A stretch of DNA of 45,116 nucleotides, taken from the IMG/VR virus record IMGVR_UViG_3300025030_002032, positions 1-45,116 of that record. One strand, given 5' to 3'. Shown here in pieces: positions 26,053-45,116 of the stretch (position 1 is the stretch's first letter; each line of letters starts with the position of its first letter). The DNA comes from a virus. Below the pieces are notes generated by a model. It saw only the letters and a program-made list of their open reading frames with translations, ran no database searches and was not told where the DNA came from. The position numbers and the translations under genes were made by a program.

Positions 26053-26991
26053 CTATAGCCTCCAATTATCCACAGGGGAGGCGCGGCGATGGGCGTTGTC
26101 GAGATCCACCTGAGCCAGGGCAAGATATTCTTTCACCATGTCAAGCGAGGAATGGCCGAGCAGTCGCTGTAATGTGTAGGGGTCGCCGCCGTTCCGCAAA
26201 TATTGGATCGCAAACGTATGACGGAAACGATGAGGATGCACATCCGTGACGCCGGCACGTTGGCCAATGCCCTCGACCAGGTTGAGGAGCTGGCCGCGGT
26301 CGAGGGGACGATTGAGCGCAGTCACGAACACCGGGTCGGAGGGAAGCGCGTTTGGCCGGCGAGCCAGATATCGCCAGAGCGCCTGTCCTGTGCGCGGGGA
26401 GAATGGGATCGAGCGTTCGACCGCACCTTTCCCCAGGACCTGAACGCGCGAATTGCGCTGGTCAACCTGGTGGAGCATCAGTCTGCAGAGTTCCGAGGCG
26501 CGCAGGCCTGTATCCACGAGGAGCAGAAGGATCGCACGATTGCGGTCTGCATTGGGGACGGCATGGTCGCTCCTGCGTTTGCCGGGGCGGTCGTAAGCCT
26601 TCGAGCGCGCAACCACCGACAACATAACTTTGACCTCGGACTCGGTGAATGGAATGATCTCGCGCTTTTCGGGCTTGGGGGGATGCACCGCTCTCACTAC
26701 ATGAGTCTCGGCGAGTTTCTCGCTTAGGGCCCACGTCCACAGGGCGGCCAGGCCGGTGTGATAGTTGAGCAGGGTTTTATTGGTCAGTCCCTGTTTGCTG
26801 GCGAGGAATGCCTCGATATGTTTATTCGTGATGTCGCTGAAAATGGTATCCTGCCCGGCGTGCGCGGCGAACATTTTGAATGTATTGGCGTAGTCGGCCA
26901 ATGTGTTCGGGCTCAGGTGGCGCGCATTCGCAGCCAGTGTATACCCATGGACAACTTGCTGAAACGTGAATTTTGGAAGGGTGGATTTCAT
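26053..26991 (-). CDS. int: Phage integrase (tyrosine recombinase)
   Basis: This 312-aa protein has an N-terminal SAM-like core-binding domain (about 12-105) and a full catalytic domain. The residues are R164 in TGLRASEL, K188 in LGKGA, H254 and R257 in HPHRFRHTF, H280 in LLGHSS and Y289 in VKEYLAL. The attP core derived from tRNA-Pro lies about 200 bp upstream of its start, with paired 16-bp direct repeats between. This is the standard layout for the enzyme that inserts the phage into the host tRNA gene. AGGAG precedes the start on the minus strand. Confidence 0.94.
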   Translation of the reverse strand: MKSTLPKFTFQQVVHGYTLAANARHLSPNTLADYANTFKMFAAHAGQDTIFSDITNKHIEAFLASKQGLTNKTLLNYHTGLAALWTWALSEKLAETHVVRAVHPPKPEKREIIPFTESEVKVMLSVVARSKAYDRPGKRRSDHAVPNADRNRAILLLLVDTGLRASELCRLMLHQVDQRNSRVQVLGKGAVERSIPFSPRTGQALWRYLARRPNALPSDPVFVTALNRPLDRGQLLNLVEGIGQRAGVTDVHPHRFRHTFAIQYLRNGGDPYTLQRLLGHSSLDMVKEYLALAQVDLDNAHRRASPVDNWRL

Positions 26992-31372: not shown

Positions 31373-31563
31373 ACATGAAACAGGTTATAGCGGTCGGCAA
31401 ACTTTACCGCGGCGTGCTGATCAACGAGGATGAGAACGGATTCGCGATCTTCGGCGAAGCCGGCCAGCGGTTCGAGTTCGGTTCATGGAAGGAGGCGTGC
31501 GGGTTCGTGGATGCCTGGTACGTGATGCAATACGCAGAACAGGAAATGATTTTCACCCTGTAG
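31369..31563 (+). CDS. Small hypothetical protein
   Basis: This 64-aa protein is coupled to the previous gene by ATGA. It has a compact alpha/beta look (VGKLYRGVLINEDENGFAIF, then a helix and a final EMIFTL strand). Function unknown. A perfect 8-bp hairpin (31573-31594) follows the stop. Confidence 0.6.
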   Translation: MNMKQVIAVGKLYRGVLINEDENGFAIFGEAGQRFEFGSWKEACGFVDAWYVMQYAEQEMIFTL

Positions 31564-31615
31564 AAAGCGACAGCCGACCTCGTGGAAGGTCGGCCATCAA
31601 AAAGGCGCTGATGTT

Positions 31616-31626
31616 GGGACGCCAGC
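31616..31626. repeat. 11-bp direct repeat flanking the HNH gene, left copy
   Basis: GGGACGCCAGC here and at 32143-32153 bracket the HNH endonuclease gene. The pair could mark the target site copied during insertion of a 527-bp segment. Confidence 0.6.
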
Positions 31627-31655
31627 TTGATTATTGTAACACAAGGATAAACAAC

Positions 31656-32123
31656 GTGTCTGCTTATATCAAACTTAGCCAAGGAAAAGAATCAATTATT
31701 GATGAAGATATGTTTGATTATCTCAATCAATGGAAATGGCATGTCAGAAATGGCTATGCCGCTCGAACAATGGAAGGTTCGCGAAATCAAGGATTGATTT
31801 TCATGCACAGATTGATTGCGGGAACCAAGAAAGGCATGGAAACAGATCATATCAACAGAAACACACTTGACAATCGTCGATCCAATCTTCGCAATTGCAC
31901 AAAATCGCAGAATCAGGCAAACAGCAAATTACGTTCGGACAATAGTAGCTGTTTCAGGGGTGTGCACTGGGATAAAGTAAATCGAAAATATCGTTCCTCG
32001 ATTCGTTTTTCTGGAAAGCGAATCTGTCTCGGATGTTTTGATGATCCTGGGGACGCGGCGCGTGCTTATGATGATGCCGCTAAAAAATATTTCGGAGAGT
32101 TTGCAAATTTGAATTTCAAATAA
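31656..32123 (+). CDS. HNH endonuclease with AP2 DNA-binding domain
   Basis: The GTG at 31656 is preferred, with AAGGA 8 bp upstream and a usual N-terminus (VSAYIKLSQGKESIIDEDMF). The 155-aa protein has an HNH nuclease core (FMHRLIAG, then METDHINRNTLDNRRSNLR) and a C-terminal AP2 domain (CFRGVHWDKVNRKYRSSIRF to GDAARAYDDAAKKYFG). Free-standing homing endonucleases of this type invade phage genomes. The gene is more AT-rich than its neighbours and is flanked by an 11-bp direct repeat. Confidence 0.9.
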   Translation: MSAYIKLSQGKESIIDEDMFDYLNQWKWHVRNGYAARTMEGSRNQGLIFMHRLIAGTKKGMETDHINRNTLDNRRSNLRNCTKSQNQANSKLRSDNSSCFRGVHWDKVNRKYRSSIRFSGKRICLGCFDDPGDAARAYDDAAKKYFGEFANLNFK

Positions 32124-33448: not shown

Positions 33449-33621
33449 ACATCTATCGAGTCCGATATTGGCCTATGTCAGATGGCCAGGCGAAGGAAGT
33501 GGAAGTGCCGGCAGAGGACCTCATCCAGGCGCGGAAAATCGTGCAGGACGATTTCGACAAGTATCTCTGCGCTCAAATCATGTCCGTTGTTTTCGTGAGA
33601 GAAGAGGAAACGCAGGCATGA
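33445..33621 (+). CDS. Small hypothetical protein upstream of the resolvase
   Basis: This 58-aa protein starts MNIYRVRYWPM and has an alpha/beta pattern (AEDLIQARKIVQDDFDKY, then IMSVVFVREEE). GGAGG lies 9 bp before the ATG and both ends overlap neighbours by ATGA, which supports a real coupled gene. Confidence 0.6.
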   Translation: MNIYRVRYWPMSDGQAKEVEVPAEDLIQARKIVQDDFDKYLCAQIMSVVFVREEETQA

Positions 33622-34025
33622 CTAATGCTCCCGCATTGATCGCTTTCTTCGTGGAAGGCGAGCCGAGGCCGAAACAGTCGTTCCGCGTGGCCGGGCACGG
33701 CAGGGGATTTACGCCGGCGCGCGTGAAGGCCTGGCAGACGGACGTGGCGTGCGAGGCTCAGCGAGCCATGCGAGAGATCGGCCGTTTCAATGAGCCGTTC
33801 GACATGAGACTGCTGGTCGTGCGTCTGATCTTCTTCCTCGGCGATCACCGCCGCGTGGACCTGGATAACCTGAGCAAGGCCGTGCTCGATGGCCTGAACG
33901 GGATCTGCTACGACGATGACCGTCAGATCGTGGAACTGAAGTTGAAGAAGACCGTCGTGAGCGACAAAAATCAAAGGCTGGGCGTGAACGTTTTCGTCCA
34001 TGCCTATCAGGAGAAAGAAGGATAA
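33618..34025 (+). CDS. RusA-like Holliday junction resolvase
   Basis: The start at 33618 is set by the ATGA overlap. The 135-aa protein has the RusA pattern: FFVEGEPRPKQSFR at the start, then the metal-binding DLDNLSKAVLDGLNG (D81, D83, K87, D91) and YDDDRQIVELKLKK. It would cut four-way junctions or branched DNA during recombination and before packaging. Its length is typical for the family. Confidence 0.88.
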   Translation: MTNAPALIAFFVEGEPRPKQSFRVAGHGRGFTPARVKAWQTDVACEAQRAMREIGRFNEPFDMRLLVVRLIFFLGDHRRVDLDNLSKAVLDGLNGICYDDDRQIVELKLKKTVVSDKNQRLGVNVFVHAYQEKEG

Positions 34026-37204: not shown

Positions 37205-38076
37205 CCCAATCAACCGACGCCTTCATGGATCATTTGGTACGCCAGGCGGTTGCGGAAGATGCGGCCAACAACGGACGGCGCACTTGGACGCCGGCGGACG
37301 ATCAATTCGTCCGTGATCACCTGGGCTGGCTGACCGATGAGGAGATGGCCGAGGCGCTGGGGCGGACGCCGATCGCAGTCCATTTGCACTGGGATCGGGA
37401 CCTGCAACTGCCCGGGCCATCCAAAGCCCCGGACGTGATCACGGCGAATAAGGCCGCCGACCTGCTCGCCATCGACACGCATAAGGTCGCGCATTGGGTT
37501 GACGTGGGTCTCATCCCCGGGCGGCTGATGGCCGGGGGACGGAAGATCAGGTTGATCCAGCGCGAGACGCTGAGGCGCTGGGTGCTGAACCCGATGAACT
37601 GGGTGTACTTCGATATTGACCTGGTGCGCGACCCCGAACTGAGACGGATGCTATGGAAGCGTGCGAAACGCTGGAACGATGAATGGTGGCCGACCGAGAA
37701 GGTGGCGCAATACAACGGCGTCGAGACGAGCGACGTAAAACGCTATATTAAAGCGCATCAGATCCGGGCGTTCCAGCCGCAGGTTTCCCTGGGGGGCCGG
37801 CATCCCCTGCGCGGGTGGGCGCGCTGGTTCGTGCTGAAATCGGAGGCGACCCGCGCCGACCTGCATTTCGTCCATAACGGCGACGATCGCACCGGCCTGA
37901 CGCCACGCGGTAAAGCCTGGCTGAAAAAGGCGCTCCGCATGGGATGGAACGCCACATGGATCGGGCGCTCGATGAAGCGCAATCCGCAAACGATCCTGAA
38001 TTGGATTCAGAGATATGACCTGGCTTACGATCCGGTGAAAGGGCGACCATTTTCCAGGAAGGCGGCGAAGAGATGA
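37201..38076 (+). CDS. Multi-HTH DNA-binding protein
   Basis: The start at 37201 is set by the ATGA overlap. The 291-aa protein contains a Myb/SANT-like module (RTWTPADDQFVRDHLGW), then a MerR/excisionase-like module (ITANKAADLLAIDTHKVAHW and RLIQRETLRRWV). Two more HTH-like segments follow (TEKVAQYNGVETSDVKRYI and MGWNATWIGRSMKRNPQTIL). It overlaps the replication initiator gene and may assist in origin recognition or late control. Confidence 0.75.
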   Translation: MTQSTDAFMDHLVRQAVAEDAANNGRRTWTPADDQFVRDHLGWLTDEEMAEALGRTPIAVHLHWDRDLQLPGPSKAPDVITANKAADLLAIDTHKVAHWVDVGLIPGRLMAGGRKIRLIQRETLRRWVLNPMNWVYFDIDLVRDPELRRMLWKRAKRWNDEWWPTEKVAQYNGVETSDVKRYIKAHQIRAFQPQVSLGGRHPLRGWARWFVLKSEATRADLHFVHNGDDRTGLTPRGKAWLKKALRMGWNATWIGRSMKRNPQTILNWIQRYDLAYDPVKGRPFSRKAAKR

Positions 38077-39365
38077 CGACCCTGCTCACACGCGACCAGG
38101 TGGATACCCTGCGATCCATCGGCGACAGTGCGCTGGTACTGATGGCGCTCTGGATGATTGACTGCAATTATCCGGGCCGCGCTTCGAAGGCGCAGGAAAT
38201 CGCCATGTGCATCCGCAAGGATGTTCGAACGGTGGAGAAACAATTGAACGAGTTATGCGCCTGTAACCGAGCGGCGAACACATCGGCCGGCTATATCCTG
38301 CTGGAAGGCGGGCGGGCGCTGATCCTTGGAATGAACCATCAAGAAGCCCTGGCACTAAGCCCTGTCTCTGGACAGGCACATGCTACAGAAGCCCAGGCAC
38401 AGACCCCCCTGTTGGCGATTACGCCGACATCCCCCCATTTGGAAGAGCACAAAATGGAGGGAGAGATTTACGCACACAATGCGCGCGACTCTAGGAGTCT
38501 AGGAGGAGGAGGAAGTGATCTTAACTTAATTAAAGTTAAAGAGAGTCTTCCTCCTACTTCTGAGTCTTCCGCACAAAATGTGCGAACCGTGCAGGCGCTG
38601 ACGACCCTGCAAATTCTCGAAGCAAGCGCGATCCTGTTCGGCGAAGGTCATGAGGTGGTGGCGCATCGGTTGTGCCTGGAATTGCTGGACAAGGATTCCA
38701 AGTACGTCCTGGCGTGCCTGGCGCATTGCTATGACAACCGCCTGACACTGGATAATCCTCGCGGCCTGCATACGCCGGCGGGAGTGGCGTATCGCATGTT
38801 ACAGGCATTCCCGGTGGATCCAAAATCGAATGAGAAATCGAAAAAACCGCGGCGGGAATACCTGCTGGACCCGTGGGCATACCTTCCCGATGAGTTCAAG
38901 GAGGTCTTTGGGCTGGTCGCTTATGAATGCGATATCTGCGAGATGAATTTCGACCGCAAGGCCGACCACGTGGCGCACATGAAGGCGGAGCATCCGATCA
39001 CGATTAGTTGCGATGATTGCGGAAAGAGATTTATCAGCACGCAATTACTCGATGCGCACACCGAGAAAGAGCATCCTGAGCCAGAGACGCCCGAGCCACT
39101 GCGAGCGACCGATGACGAGGAAACCGTCCATGCTTGGCATACAGTACTGGGGCTACTTCAGGCAGAAATGCCGAAGGTTTCCTTCGAGACCTGGGTGCGG
39201 GACACAGTTGCGGTCCGTTACGACGGTCACACGCTGACCGTGGGCGTGTGGAATGAGTATTGCCGCGATTGGATGGAGAGCCGGCTGGCGGGGACGGTCG
39301 AGCGGATGCTGCTCGGCGTCCTGAATGCGGACGTGAGAATTGAATTCGTGGTGATGAACGCATGA
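38073..39365 (+). CDS. Replication initiator: winged helix, two C2H2 fingers and DnaA N-terminal-like domain
   Basis: This 430-aa protein joins several modules. Residues 1-90 form a winged-helix-like domain (LVLMALWMID, then IRKDVRTVEKQLNEL). Residues 100-170 are a low-complexity linker encoded by the origin-like DNA. Residues 175-250 are helical. Two C2H2 fingers follow: C286-x2-C289-x12-H302-x4-H307 and C313-x2-C316-x12-H329-x4-H334. Residues 353-430 match a DnaA N-terminal domain (WHTVLGLLQAEMPKVSFETW, then LTVGVWNEYCRDWMESRL). The last domain could recruit the host DnaB helicase, since the phage encodes none. Confidence 0.8.
   Translation: MTTLLTRDQVDTLRSIGDSALVLMALWMIDCNYPGRASKAQEIAMCIRKDVRTVEKQLNELCACNRAANTSAGYILLEGGRALILGMNHQEALALSPVSGQAHATEAQAQTPLLAITPTSPHLEEHKMEGEIYAHNARDSRSLGGGGSDLNLIKVKESLPPTSESSAQNVRTVQALTTLQILEASAILFGEGHEVVAHRLCLELLDKDSKYVLACLAHCYDNRLTLDNPRGLHTPAGVAYRMLQAFPVDPKSNEKSKKPRREYLLDPWAYLPDEFKEVFGLVAYECDICEMNFDRKADHVAHMKAEHPITISCDDCGKRFISTQLLDAHTEKEHPEPETPEPLRATDDEETVHAWHTVLGLLQAEMPKVSFETWVRDTVAVRYDGHTLTVGVWNEYCRDWMESRLAGTVERMLLGVLNADVRIEFVVMNA
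38487..38584. other. Candidate replication origin inside the initiator gene
   Basis: Nested inverted repeats share one centre. AGGAGGAAG (38507-38515) pairs with CTTCCTCCT (38547-38555), and the AT-rich TTAACTT (38521-38527) with AAGTTAA (38533-38539). GAGTC motifs flank it: GACTC-TAG-GAGTC at 38487-38499 and GAGTCTTCC at 38543-38551 and 38562-38570. A dyad, CGCACA-AAA-TGTGCG, closes it at 38570-38584. An AT-rich core with iterons inside the initiator gene is the layout of the lambda origin in gene O. Confidence 0.6.
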
Positions 39366-39784: not shown

Positions 39785-40249
39785 ATGGATGATGATACAA
39801 AAAGTTTAGCAGTTTTTATCATAATCTTCCTGGTGTTGATCGCGGCAGGAATCGGTCTCGCAAACCAGAACCAGATCATGCCGATTGTTGCGGAGGCGGA
39901 AGCCGGGGCGGCGATCGGAACAGGATCGGTGATCGCTTTGGAAAAAGGCGTGGCTTTGTTGTTGAAATTGTTGTTAGGCGCAACGGTCGCCGGTGTGGCC
40001 GCGGCGGTGTTCGCCGAAACAAAGAAAGCATATCGCGCCTGGAAGAAAAGCGCGCAGGCAGGACGCTGGCAGGCGGGACCGGGAGCGAAGTGGCAGACGA
40101 AGCAAACTGTCGAACCGAAGTTGACGCGCCAGGACTTGATGCTGTTAGCGCTTTCTGGTAAGTATCCCGTCGATAAATTGGCGGGCAGGCCGAGGGTAAG
40201 TCGGATGCGATCCGAGTCCAATGATGACGAGCTGAACATATCCATGTAG
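39785..40249 (+). CDS. Membrane protein of the FtsK-like cluster
   Basis: This 154-aa protein has an N-terminal membrane helix (LAVFIIIFLVLIAAGIGL), a second hydrophobic region (about 50-77) and a basic cytoplasmic-type tail. It lies 8 bp before the lipoprotein and is read in the same operon as the FtsK-like ATPase. It may help anchor a membrane complex. Confidence 0.65.
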   Translation: MDDDTKSLAVFIIIFLVLIAAGIGLANQNQIMPIVAEAEAGAAIGTGSVIALEKGVALLLKLLLGATVAGVAAAVFAETKKAYRAWKKSAQAGRWQAGPGAKWQTKQTVEPKLTRQDLMLLALSGKYPVDKLAGRPRVSRMRSESNDDELNISM

Positions 40250-40257
40250 GAGGCCGC

Positions 40258-41337
40258 GTGAAAAAAATCATCATCACCTTTCTTATTTTGGCTGGGTCTT
40301 TGACCGCTTGCGGGGTGTATGACCAGGTGGAAGCGGAGGCAGTGGCTACGTTTGCGGCGATGGGAACTGCACCGCCGCCCAAATATCAGACCGCGGCGGC
40401 GATCTATCTGGGATTGACATTGACGCCAACACCGACGCCCTATAGCGGTACACCCACGACGAGCATGGAACAATATTCCCTGACGTTGATCGCTCAACAG
40501 CAGGCCAATGGACTGACTCAATCTGCCCAGGAGTTGGAGCTGGAACGGGAGAAGATCGCCGCAGAGCAGAAGGCGGAGGCTGGCAAGGCAACCGCGGCCG
40601 CGGCGGAACGGACATCGGCGGCGATTGACGCGATACGCACCGCACAAGCGCAGGAAACGCGGCAGATGGCTACGGCGCAACAAAATGCGACGGCCACTCA
40701 GGACGCGCTGATCTACATCCAGCAGACGCAGGCGGCGCATGGGGTGGAGACACAGCAATCAGGACAACAGACGGCGGCGGTGGAACCGACTCATGCGATG
40801 TGGACGATGACGGCGGTTTCGATCCAACAACGCATTTCAGAGGGACAGGCGCGGGATATGGAGCTGGCGGTGCGGCGTCAGGAAATGAAAAACGTATTCG
40901 ATGCCTACGGGCCGTGGTTGATGGTGATCTTTGTTGCCGTTGTTTCATCGGAAGGATTTCGGAAGTGGCTGAAGACGCGCGTGTTCAAACGGGACGAGCA
41001 TGGCAAACTGCCGGTTGTTTCCACGGAAACCGAGAATGGAAAGAAGGTATTCGCAAAACTGGATCAACTTCCCCTACCGATCTTTACAGTGGATAAAGAT
41101 GGACAGGTGGAACAGCCGAAGCCACCCGACCCCGCCGAACAATCGGATGTGACGCGCAGGACGCAAGCTATCGAGGCGATCTCATTCCTGCCGACACCGT
41201 ATGCACAGCAAGGCACGAAGATCATGAACGCTGAGTTTGGCAGGCAAGCAAGCACGCCGAACATTTTCACTCGAAACAACCCGGCCATGAATCCCATCCT
41301 GGACGAGGCCGAGGCGCAGTTCCTGGAGGAAGCATGA
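40258..41337 (+). CDS. Coiled-coil lipoprotein with an internal membrane span
   Basis: AGGAGG precedes the GTG start. The 359-aa protein has a lipoprotein signal with lipobox LTAC (C18). A proline/threonine-rich segment (TPTPTPYSGTPTT) is followed by a long alanine/glutamine-rich coiled coil (about 85-205). A membrane helix comes next (about 218-232, GPWLMVIFVAVVSS), then about 125 cytoplasmic-type residues. It overlaps the FtsK-like gene by ATGA. The topology implies an outside coiled coil linked through the membrane to an inside partner, plausibly the ATPase. Confidence 0.75.
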   Translation: MKKIIITFLILAGSLTACGVYDQVEAEAVATFAAMGTAPPPKYQTAAAIYLGLTLTPTPTPYSGTPTTSMEQYSLTLIAQQQANGLTQSAQELELEREKIAAEQKAEAGKATAAAAERTSAAIDAIRTAQAQETRQMATAQQNATATQDALIYIQQTQAAHGVETQQSGQQTAAVEPTHAMWTMTAVSIQQRISEGQARDMELAVRRQEMKNVFDAYGPWLMVIFVAVVSSEGFRKWLKTRVFKRDEHGKLPVVSTETENGKKVFAKLDQLPLPIFTVDKDGQVEQPKPPDPAEQSDVTRRTQAIEAISFLPTPYAQQGTKIMNAEFGRQASTPNIFTRNNPAMNPILDEAEAQFLEEA

Positions 41338-42719
41338 CTGACCTGCAGAGACTCTATCCGATTGTCGTCAAAGTGGCGGAAGTTCTGGAATACATGATGG
41401 TGGAAGAAATGGGACTGATGCCCCCCGAAACCTACGAGGTAGGCGAGCGGGACGATCGTGTTTATATCGTCGCGTCTTTCAACCCGATGGCATTGGGAAG
41501 AAGTTTGAAGGCTTACGAAAATGAGGATGTGGCGCGGCGCTTGAAGATGGCGCTGGGCGGGTTGCCCATTACGATCACGCGCAAGACGGGAACTCATTAC
41601 GTGGTTCTGTTGACCGGATCGCTGAGCCTGCCGCGCTCGATCCCCTTTCCTGGTTTCGGCGAGCGTGACACATTTCGCCTGGGCATGGGACTGCGGAGCG
41701 AAGTGAAATTGCACGCCAACCAGTTGAAGAACGTGATTATCGGCGCGGGGCAGGGAGCGGGCAAGAGCAACGTGCAGGCCTTGCTGATTCACCAGGCACG
41801 CGCTTTCGGCTGGAAACTTTTCCTGGCCGACCCGGACGGGCACACGTTCAACCCGGATATCTGGAATAGCCTGGCGGCGGCACCTGTGGCCAGTTCCCCT
41901 TCCGACGTTTTTCAGGTTCTGGACCGTATTGCGGCGGAACTGGCTGACCGTGTCGCGCTCTTTCGTGCGGCGGCTGATCGTGGGATCCCGCCCGCGGACA
42001 TTGACGCGTACAACCTAATGGTGGCTGATGCCACGTTGCCGCGTCTGGCATTTGCAGTAGACGAGGCGAATTCGTACCTGGGTGAAAAAAAGATTTTTGC
42101 CCAGATGGCTGATCTCCTGCGCCGCGGTCGGAAGTGGGGATTGCATATCTTCCTATCGGGCCACGAATGGCATAAGGACACTGTACCCGCCGAAGTCAAT
42201 GACATGCTTCAGACACGCATCGGGATGACGGTGGCCGCCGAGCAAACGAGCGCGGTGGTGTTGCGTTCCTCACACTGGGGGCGCTGGGTGATCGGGAAGC
42301 CTGCCGGCCGTGGTGTGTTGCGGACAAACCATTATCAGCCGATGCAGTTCTTTCTGGTGACGGAAGAGATGGAGCGTGAATGGCTGGGACAGACGGTGGT
42401 GGTGCCGGCGCCATTACCAGAATGGGAAGCAGTGCTGGTAAGACGATCTATACAGGAAGCCGACGGCAGGATGACCATTGCAATGCTGATGGGATGGGGC
42501 GTGGACGCATGGAAGGCGCGCACTATGCTGGAACGATATGAGGTGTGTGGCTGGTTGACTAAGGATGGAACTCAGAAGAATGCACGTTGCATAACCCCAA
42601 AATTGGCTGGTTTGGTCTCAAACGCTCAAACTGCTCAAACTGCATCAAACACCCACCCGTTGGCTCAAACTGGTCTCAAACTGTCTCAAACACAAAATAT
42701 GGGATTGGCTGCCGATTGA
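41334..42719 (+). CDS. FtsK/SpoIIIE/TraB-like DNA translocase ATPase
   Basis: This 461-aa protein has a RecA-like motor domain. Walker A is GAGQGAGKSN (137-146, K144) and Walker B is LAFAVDEAN (about 238-246). The FtsK-type segment LLRRGRKWGLHIFLSGHEW follows. The N-terminal 120 residues replace the usual FtsK membrane domain, so the anchor is probably one of the two upstream membrane proteins. A C-terminal part with a winged-helix look (MTIAMLMGWGVDAWKARTML) may read DNA sequence. Related single ATPases move double-stranded DNA between cells or between cell compartments. The last codons overlie a TCAAAC repeat array. Confidence 0.85.
   Translation: MTDLQRLYPIVVKVAEVLEYMMVEEMGLMPPETYEVGERDDRVYIVASFNPMALGRSLKAYENEDVARRLKMALGGLPITITRKTGTHYVVLLTGSLSLPRSIPFPGFGERDTFRLGMGLRSEVKLHANQLKNVIIGAGQGAGKSNVQALLIHQARAFGWKLFLADPDGHTFNPDIWNSLAAAPVASSPSDVFQVLDRIAAELADRVALFRAAADRGIPPADIDAYNLMVADATLPRLAFAVDEANSYLGEKKIFAQMADLLRRGRKWGLHIFLSGHEWHKDTVPAEVNDMLQTRIGMTVAAEQTSAVVLRSSHWGRWVIGKPAGRGVLRTNHYQPMQFFLVTEEMEREWLGQTVVVPAPLPEWEAVLVRRSIQEADGRMTIAMLMGWGVDAWKARTMLERYEVCGWLTKDGTQKNARCITPKLAGLVSNAQTAQTASNTHPLAQTGLKLSQTQNMGLAAD
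42618..42691. repeat. Array of seven TCAAAC repeats
   Basis: TCAAAC begins at 42618, 42626, 42635, 42645, 42665, 42676 and 42686, at intervals of 8-11 bp with one double gap. The near-helical period suggests protein binding along one face. It is placed at the 3' end of the FtsK-like gene and before an HTH gene. It could be a centromere-like or translocase-loading site. Confidence 0.7.
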
Positions 42720-43114
42720 TGAGTAGTCAGTCACAAGGATTCTTTGGAATGCAAAAACCAGCCACTGGTACGCCACCTACCACACCGCCACAGACGAGCG
42801 CACGGTGCAGGGATATGATTACCATCCGGCGGGCGCAGAAGCGCCTTTTACGGACTTATCGCCGGCTCGGGAAATCCAGGTCATGGCGCGCGGTTGCGAA
42901 GAGTTTGGGCATCAATCATGGCGACATTAGCGCATTCATCAATCACGGACACGTCCCGCGCAGTGAGCATCTTCGCCTGGCGCTTGGTCTGCCGCGTATC
43001 ATGCCGTCGGAACGGAAACCCGTCCAGCATAAGTTCATCCCATTGATCGGGACGGAGGGGTGGGAGATGGCATTTTTCAAATTGCTCCGACCGAGGAAAT
43101 GGAAGATCGAATGA
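42719..43114 (+). CDS. HTH DNA-binding protein
   Basis: The start at 42719 overlaps the ATPase stop (TGATG). The 131-aa protein has a basic region (IRRAQKRLLRTYRRLGKSRS) and an HTH-like segment (WRAVAKSLGINHGDISAFIN). It lies directly next to the TCAAAC array and is a candidate to bind it. Confidence 0.65.
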   Translation: MSSQSQGFFGMQKPATGTPPTTPPQTSARCRDMITIRRAQKRLLRTYRRLGKSRSWRAVAKSLGINHGDISAFINHGHVPRSEHLRLALGLPRIMPSERKPVQHKFIPLIGTEGWEMAFFKLLRPRKWKIE

Positions 43115-43569
43115 ATGAATTCATCGAGTGGTATTTGAACGAACGTCATCATCTCTGGCCGCGCAACGTGTGGTGCGGAATTTCGGTTACATCGCAAGCC
43201 ACGACGCCGCGTATCGCTGCGTTGTGGTCAATTCGACAGATGATCAAGCTGCGCCTGGCGTCCACCATGCCGACATTCTTCGTGAGTTATGGTCCCGCGC
43301 TGGAATCGGTCAACTTCAATTCGTATGAAGACGCGTTCGACTGGATGATCATCGAGGGGGAATCGGGGCGCGGCGATACGGCTATGCTGGAAACGGAAAC
43401 AGTTCTGAACACCCTGGCGTGGTGCAGGATGAATGGTATCGCTCCATTCGTAAAGCAAATGGGGACGCGCTGGGCGCAACAGACAGAGGCGGATAGTTTC
43501 CACTTCAAAGGCGGGGACGTGAATGCCTGGCCTGAACAGATCCGCGTGCGGGAGATGCCGAAAGGGTAA
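43111..43569 (+). CDS. DUF5131-like (phage Gp37/Gp68) protein, shortened
   Basis: The start at 43111 is set by an ATGA overlap. The 152-aa protein matches the C-terminal half of the Gp37/Gp68 family in appearance: WPRNVWCGISVTSQ, then FDWMIIEGESGRGDTAML and GIAPFVKQMGTRW. Full members are near 250 aa and have an N-terminal cysteine-containing part that is missing here. It may be a trimmed, still coding, version. Biochemical function of the family is not known to me. Confidence 0.65.
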   Translation: MNEFIEWYLNERHHLWPRNVWCGISVTSQATTPRIAALWSIRQMIKLRLASTMPTFFVSYGPALESVNFNSYEDAFDWMIIEGESGRGDTAMLETETVLNTLAWCRMNGIAPFVKQMGTRWAQQTEADSFHFKGGDVNAWPEQIRVREMPKG

Positions 43570-44052: not shown

Positions 44053-44985
44053 ATGAACTATTATGCCAGATTTTCCCGGAACGGGACACAGTTTCTCGCA
44101 TTGACTGGATACACACGGGAAGAATTCCAGGCACTGTTGCCCGCCTTTCGCACCTGCTTTTTGAAGCGGATGGAGCGCTACACGCTGAAAAAGAAGAAGC
44201 GTGGTAAACGTCGTTACGCGGATTATTGCAACAGTCCTCTGCCGACGATGGAAGACAAACTTGTGTTTATCCTGATGTATCTGCGCAAAGCGACCACCCA
44301 GGATATTTTTGGAGAAGTTTTCAGAATGTCGCAACCGGTAGCCAATAAGTGGATCCATATTCTACATCCTTGCTTGAACCGAGCACTGGCAGAGTTGGGC
44401 GAAAAACCGGCCCGCAATGTCACGGAGTTGCATCTGGCGTCTAAAAAAGGGCAGATTTTCTTCCAGGATGGCACAGAACGACCCATCGAGAGGCCCAAAA
44501 ACCAGAAAATCCAAGGCTTTTTCTATAGCGGCAAGAAAAAACGGCATTGCGTCAAGAACAATGTGCTGATCAATCAACAGGCCAAGATCCTCTTGCTGAC
44601 CCCGACCTGCGAAGGCAAGAAGCACGACAAGAAAATAGCAGATGAAACCGACCTGGTCTTGCCGAAGGGGAGCCGCCTATGTCAGGACACCGGCTTTCAA
44701 GGTTTTGCTTTGCCAGGCGTGACCATCATCCAACCTATGAAGAAACCGCGCGGCAAAGAACTCGCTCCTGAGCAAAAAGAGAGCAATCGCCAGATATCCC
44801 GCTTGCACATCCGCGTCGAACATGCCATCGGAGGAGTGAAACGCTATCGGATTGTCAAAGATCAAGTGCGAGCCCGGAAAGATAACTTCCGAGATCGGGC
44901 CATGGAAACCTGTTGCGGCTTGCACAATTTCCGCTTGAACTTCAGACCATGGCGCTACAAGTCCGATTCTGTTAAAGTGTTATAA
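44053..44985 (+). CDS. IS5-type DDE transposase
   Basis: This 310-aa protein has an N-terminal HTH region (GYTREEFQALLPAF and TTQDIFGEVFRMSQPVANKW) and a DDE_Tnp_4-like catalytic domain. The catalytic residues are probably D139 (FFQDGTERP), D212 (LCQDTGFQG) and E256 (RVEHAIGGVKRY). The reading frame is intact and ends within the right inverted repeat, so the element may still be mobile. Confidence 0.9.
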   Translation: MNYYARFSRNGTQFLALTGYTREEFQALLPAFRTCFLKRMERYTLKKKKRGKRRYADYCNSPLPTMEDKLVFILMYLRKATTQDIFGEVFRMSQPVANKWIHILHPCLNRALAELGEKPARNVTELHLASKKGQIFFQDGTERPIERPKNQKIQGFFYSGKKKRHCVKNNVLINQQAKILLLTPTCEGKKHDKKIADETDLVLPKGSRLCQDTGFQGFALPGVTIIQPMKKPRGKELAPEQKESNRQISRLHIRVEHAIGGVKRYRIVKDQVRARKDNFRDRAMETCCGLHNFRLNFRPWRYKSDSVKVL

Positions 44986-44990
44986 CGTCT

Positions 44991-45116
44991 AATACTTACG
45001 TATATGCCAATATATGTAACTAATGCCTGAAAAACCATGAAAACACAAAATGCGCTTACCCCAGTTCGACAAGTTGATCTCGCCGCGATCGATCGCGCCG
45101 ACTTACAGCCGAGAAC
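44991..45116. repeat. Terminal direct repeat, right copy
   Basis: Identical to 15-140. It begins exactly at the right end of the insertion sequence, so the phage sequence continues from the element straight into the recombinase gene when the circle is closed. Confidence 0.9.

Follow-up and report, generated by a model that had tools for sequence, protein, structure and literature searches.

The gene at positions 38073-39365 of the window (the whole stretch analysed, 45,116 nucleotides of the IMG/VR virus record IMGVR_UViG_3300025030_002032) very probably encodes a phage replication initiator, as an earlier note on this DNA had proposed. The best evidence for this role, absent from that note, is a putative origin of paired iterons and an AT-rich region lying within the gene itself. 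The 430-residue product is composed, in order, of a winged helix, a disordered linker, a helical domain, two C2H2 fingers and a DnaA domain I (Table 1). We consider it likely that the protein is a lambda O-like initiator, whose winged helix would bind the in-gene iterons and whose domain I would dock onto host DnaD; the binding, melting and loading steps, the role of the fingers and the Anaerolineae host are what we infer in this reading. It would let a phage start replication with one gene, which encodes an origin-binding domain of its own and a host DnaA docking domain as a plug and holds the origin in its linker. It also gives a candidate origin open to testing, a site at which each family member probably binds DNA, and an approach to how the Chloroflexota load their helicase.

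The record ends overlap by 126 bp (15-140 is identical to 44991-45116) and a separate record, L002, reads through the end junction, so the genome is circular, about 45.0 kb long and essentially complete. It encodes a terminase, portal, major head protein, tape measure, endolysin, two tyrosine integrases, RusA, two ParB-like proteins and an FtsK-like ATPase. Domain searches of the closed genome found no DnaB_C, IstB/DnaC, DnaD (DnaB_2), Toprim_2 or DNA_pol_A; nor were these domains present in the records of related viruses that we searched and that may be fragments. Among the ORFs scanned, none matched a PHROG helicase, primase or polymerase. The earlier claim that no helicase, primase or polymerase is encoded thus holds in the circularly closed genome, and these searches revealed no phage helicase gene. 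A non-homologous P-like helicase loader in the genome is possible. Such a layout would allow a phage that has no replication enzymes of its own to borrow those of its host by simple means.

Table 1. Features of the initiator gene, its putative origin and two neighbouring genes (window coordinates)
Feature	Position	Strand	Evidence
RusA-like Holliday junction resolvase, upstream of initiator	33468-34025	+	PF05866, E=6e-15; homologue near initiator of G004
Replication initiator gene (very probable), 430 aa	38073-39365	+	ATG to stop; ORF and domain searches, AlphaFold model
N-terminal winged helix, residues 1-88	38073-38336	+	pLDDT 74-92 over residues 11-80; Foldseek, OhrR/MarR-type regulators
Disordered linker, residues 89-173, hosting putative origin	38337-38591	+	pLDDT < 50 over 88-173; repeats and palindromes
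Iteron 1, CGCACACAATGCGCG, imperfect palindrome	38471-38485		Repeat search; codon shuffles
Left arm of core palindrome, AGGAGGAGGAGGAAG, triplet repeats	38501-38515		Inverted repeat with 38547-38561, 87% complementary
AT-rich core, 77% AT, candidate unwinding region, near-palindrome TTAACTTAATTAAAGTTAA inside	38516-38546		Composition; equivalent homologue cores
Right arm of core palindrome, CTTCCTCCTACTTCT	38547-38561		Inverted repeat with left arm; hairpin test
Iteron 2, CGCACAAAATGTGCG, palindrome, 99 bp from iteron 1	38570-38584		Repeat search, homologue comparison
Helical middle domain, residues 175-281	38595-38915	+	AlphaFold of aligned fragment, pLDDT 92.7, pTM 0.86
C2H2 finger 1, residues 286-307	38928-38993	+	Pfam zf-C2H2_4; position conserved in homologues
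C2H2 finger 2, residues 313-334	39009-39074	+	Pfam zf-C2H2; also L019, L020, altered form in L025
DnaA domain I, residues 351-428	39123-39356	+	PF11638, PDB sequence matches, Foldseek, identity to Anaerolineae DnaA
FtsK/SpoIIIE-like ATPase, neighbour common to several relatives	41334-42719	+	phrog_1358

Domain architecture and the C-terminal DnaA domain I

Residues 354-411 match DnaA_N (PF11638) in Pfam with an E value of 1.3e-8 (34.9 bits against the curated cut-off of 24.6), and phmmer relates the C-terminus to DnaA domain I of B. subtilis (4tps, E=9e-11; 8btg, 4e-9) and E. coli (2e0g, 1e-3). The modelled domain shows the helix-helix-strand-strand-helix-helix-strand fold of DnaA domain I; Foldseek ranks B. 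subtilis DnaA domain I 4tps at the top (E=9e-7, target TM 0.88-0.91, rmsd 1.0-1.1 Å) and also returns the E. coli, H. pylori and M. genitalium domains. The DnaA N-terminal pattern that the earlier note had recognised in residues 353-430 is therefore borne out by PF11638, phmmer and the predicted structure, residues 350-430 having a structural match to DnaA domain I (4tps) at a TM of 0.9. Two further proposals of that note also stood: the N-terminal winged helix is present in the AlphaFold model at residues 1-88, though its Foldseek match is weak (E about 0.03), and both canonical C-x2-C-x12-H-x4-H fingers score above the Pfam cut-offs of zf-C2H2_4 and zf-C2H2. The finger ligands are C286-x2-C289-x12-H302-x4-H307 and C313-x2-C316-x12-H329-x4-H334.

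The protein is not a DnaA, because domain I is present while the AAA+ domain and domain IV are absent: Pfam gave no Bac_DnaA (AAA+) or domain IV match, and the score was far below the TIGR00362 cut-off. A DnaB_2/DnaD C-terminal domain, as in DnaD-type phage replisome organisers, was looked for in the initiator and not found. Comparison of the middle domain (175-281) with PDB folds produced no match (best E 4.5).

By sequence identity, the window's domain I is closest to DnaA of the Anaerolineae: it averages 54.6% (up to 64%) with 67 Anaerolineae-type DnaA domains, taken from the best 80 of 204 bacterial loci, against 32.5% for B. subtilis and 26.5% for E. coli. In a tree of 89 columns, which does not distinguish one from several acquisitions within Chloroflexota viruses, the viral domains group with Anaerolineae DnaA (support 91/88). 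Because domain I both resembles and groups with Anaerolineae DnaA, the host is probably a member of the Anaerolineae (Chloroflexota).

A putative origin within the linker

The iteron pair at 38471-38584 flanks a long AT-rich palindrome, and the whole lies in the part of the gene that encodes the disordered linker. As a sequence pattern, this looks like a putative lambda-like origin within the initiator linker. It emerged only from comparison of the linker between homologues; a default-setting repeat search around the initiator gene gave no iteron family, and the GC skew of the window pointed to no clear origin. Most homologues have an equal layout in the same place with iterons of their own, such as GTGCGGAAAATCGCAC in L019 and L020, GAGGGGGGAAATCCCCCC in L023, AGATTCGAGGAATCCTCGAATCT in L027, AGAATCGTCCTGAGAACGATTCT in L028, and others. 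The 13-nt GCACAAAATGTGC of iteron 2 is present twice in L131, whose initiator is 29% identical to that of the window overall and 38% in the N-terminal part, yet has the same 13-nt iteron.

The combined repeat and palindrome score exceeded 200/200 codon shuffles in the window and in 7 of 9 close homologues. The window iteron score (S=26) compares with a shuffle maximum of 25, which is modest for the window alone, while 3 of the 39 control ORFs and 8 of the 10 initiators reached a score of 26 (Fisher p=1.4e-5); this statistic was designed after the pattern had been noticed, and it is the family evidence that carries the origin claim. All three C-terminal-type members found later (L131, L135, L138) passed the iteron-pair test; L021, L025, L031 and L032 failed it. 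The localised hairpin test of the core, made post hoc after a whole-ORF hairpin test had not been significant for the window alone, gave z = -3.4 in the window (0/200 shuffles reached it), -2.5 to -8.3 in 7 homologues and -4.3 in L131, with weak core hairpins in L021 and L022. The sequence of the core arms differs among viruses and their complementarity is kept.

Similarity of the iterons follows that of the winged helices (Mantel r 0.70, p 0.0008), and it is probable that the winged helix is the iteron-binding domain. Iteron-like sites are found at 7 distinct places in the genome against about 2 expected, and the winged helix may thus have a second role in regulating transcription. Sites similar to iteron CGCACAAAATGTGCG elsewhere in the window are located at 1542, 8443, 11713, 13759 and 27480.

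The number of fingers varies among relatives, which carry two, one (C2H2 or C2HC) or none, and we therefore judge the fingers an accessory part of the initiator. The arm triplets are GGA repeats where there are two canonical fingers, other triplets in several relatives with a finger, and none in the fingerless L021. It is conceivable, though in our estimate improbable, that the C2H2/C2HC fingers read the triplet-repeat arms, making the winged helix, fingers and domain I a one-protein machine for origin recognition, melting and recruitment of host DnaD.

Route to the host helicase

DnaA domain I recruits the helicase directly in E. coli and via DnaD in B. subtilis (PMC10201431); in the latter, domain I binds DnaD through a surface for which T26 and W27 are needed and of which F49 is also a contact site (PMC6393240, PMC10201431). 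The counterparts in the initiator are T373, W374 and Y396. The T26 and W27 positions are kept in 15/15 viral domains, position 49 is Y or F in all 15, and the domain I interface columns are conserved above random columns (p 0.0045), a conservation of contact residues that may be due in part to folding. At the position of E. coli E21 the initiator has Ser. Twenty Chloroflexota genomes (mostly Anaerolineae), which are metagenomic and were drawn from bacterial loci chosen for their similarity to the viral domain I, contained DciA in no case and a DnaD-domain protein in 18, and the gene order in the host clusters read is dnaB - dnaD-like - DnaI/DnaC-like AAA+ ATPase. A literature search on helicase loading in the Chloroflexota gave nothing.

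Since DciA is absent, the dnaB-dnaD-DnaI-like cluster is present and the DnaD-contact residues are kept, capture of host DnaD seems likelier than direct capture of DnaB. The earlier note had the C-terminal domain capturing host DnaB, which is not the best guess for hosts that appear to follow a Bacillus-type route. It is possible that the true loading partner is a protein other than the DnaD-like ones of these metagenomic genomes.

In the mechanism we propose, the winged helix, probably as a dimer, would bind the palindromic iterons in its own gene, and the bound initiator would help to open the AT-rich palindrome between them, with the zinc finger or fingers adjoining domain I probably adding DNA contact at the origin. 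The C-terminal domain I, matched to host DnaA, would then offer the docking surface of the host protein, its most likely partner being host DnaD, which would bring the DnaI-like loader and the DnaB helicase; host primase and polymerase would carry out the remaining replication.

The same initiator and origin could be combined with a domain I that contacts host DnaB directly, as E. coli domain I does. That one surface serves both systems (PMC10201431) and that no phage loader was found in the genome are consistent with such contact, but the viral domain is more B. subtilis-like, in its T-W pair as in the Ser at the E21 position, and the probable hosts carry the dnaD-dnaI-like cluster; we regard this variant as unlikely. 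Rather less probable is that domain I recruits host DnaA by domain I-domain I contact and that host DnaA melts the phage origin. Domain I self-associates in some DnaAs (Actinomycetes, PMC13270200), and the triplet-repeat arms at the AT-rich core recall DnaA-trios (PMC10721633). However, DnaA boxes are not enriched in the window (2 found against 2.5 expected). We also rejected the trio reading of the arms: by our reading of the layout, the NAG-type arms, relative to the nearest iteron, point the wrong way for an unwinding element of the B. subtilis type, and the arms of L022 and L023 break the trio rule.

Two other explanations dispense with a role in initiation, and we hold both to be very improbable. 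In one, the protein serves chiefly to regulate transcription, and the palindromes act as operators or form RNA hairpins instead of being an origin. Its winged helix is indeed MarR-like, iteron-like sites occur elsewhere in the genome and the core is able to fold as a hairpin, but a host-type DnaA domain I would be needless for such a role, most homologues have the sites in the middle of the gene, around an AT-rich core, and the search of the genome found no other initiator. This last point also counts against the least probable reading of all, a host-takeover factor whose domain I decoy occupies DnaD or DnaA and blocks host initiation in a SirA-like way. SirA does bind domain I and block DnaD recruitment (PMC10201431), and a free domain I could titrate DnaD. 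Against it, the in-gene iterons and AT-rich element together with the winged helix fit an initiator, and the divergent relative L030 has an N-terminal part in common with annotated phage replication initiation proteins.

Relatives, known systems and genome neighbourhood

Domain I, used as the query, picked out 14 viral contigs and 204 bacterial loci, and the best 80 of the latter, which were kept, are nearly all from Chloroflexota and mostly genuine DnaA with an AAA+ part. The domain I alignment succeeded where single-protein and finger-based scans had returned only G004 or nothing, and where the middle domain was too variable to be used as a query. About a dozen IMG/VR contigs share the architecture of the initiator, with zero, one or two fingers: domain I is C-terminal, the N-terminal part is mostly a winged helix, and in the closer relatives the middle domain is shared as well. 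L131, L135 and L138 came from a second scan. The reverse order, an N-terminal DnaA domain I followed by an apparent winged helix, was observed in a Leptolinea plasmid protein (L012:11944-12831) and in the viral L136:3974-4858. Proteins of 618-705 aa with an N-terminal DnaA domain I, no Walker motif and, save weak matches, no other Pfam domain occur in bacterial contigs, nearly all Chloroflexota (L067:6172-8283, L071:8839-10902, L082:2355-4208, L095:8965-10929, L099:3514-5460 and L104:2285-4399); they may serve plasmids or integrated elements as replication initiators.

In lambda, the origin lies within the O gene, where inverted repeats bind O dimers and the adjoining AT-rich region is opened (PMC5043065). 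The pattern described here is similar in its putative origin within the initiator gene, its palindromic iterons and its AT-rich region, a likeness of sequence pattern only. It differs in that the AT-rich region lies between the iterons, within a long palindrome, and in that lambda has a separate loader, P, whereas the window yielded no loader and the initiator ends in a DnaA domain I. No Pfam, PHROG or phage tblastn match relates the initiator to lambda O, and we propose that it would work like lambda O without being a member of that family by homology. With bacterial DnaA it shares the sequence, fold and contact residues of domain I, closest to those of the Anaerolineae; unlike DnaA, it has neither AAA+ domain nor domain IV, and its domain I is C-terminal instead of N-terminal.

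The earlier note had suggested a little-described initiator family. Little described it is, and our literature search found no description of phage DnaA domain I fusions or C2H2-finger initiators, but the combination of a winged helix with a C-terminal DnaA domain I is also found in Bacillota plasmids. These plasmid proteins (Niallia, Thermobacillus, Terribacillus), some of them annotated by their DnaA_N domain, have an N-terminal winged helix (HTH_36) and a C-terminal DnaA_N; they differ from the window initiator in lacking fingers and a recognisable middle domain and in having a B. subtilis-type domain I, which groups with B. subtilis DnaA in the same tree (support 98/80). Bacillota plasmids carry a Bacillota-type domain I plug, which points to repeated borrowing or tracking of host DnaA domain I by mobile elements. 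Staphylococcal phage initiation proteins (e.g. phage 37) have an N-terminal part related to the divergent member L030 and a RusA gene near; unlike the window initiator, they end in Phg_2220_C and are followed by a DnaC-like loader gene. Weak sequence or fold similarity was also detected to phrog_26369 (over the C-terminal domain), Brevibacillus phage SecTim467 and the uncultured Caudovirales protein A0A6J5SN45, a group annotated as replication initiation protein or 'DnaA N-terminal domain containing'; no C2H2 fingers are reported for these hits, and full-length structural overlap is poor (TM about 0.2).

Near the initiator lies a cassette (39785-42719) of a 154-aa protein, a 359-aa protein with a lipoprotein-like N-terminus and a TPTPTP stretch, and the FtsK-like ATPase, which is common to L022 and partly to L026 and L021 and recalls modules of conjugative elements. 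Elsewhere in the window, the two tyrosine integrases of this one phage genome are located at 61-984 and 26053-26991, and an HNH endonuclease with an AP2-like domain at 31485-32123. A truncated DUF5131 protein (43060-43569) and a DDE_Tnp_4 transposase (44053-44985) are found near the record end.
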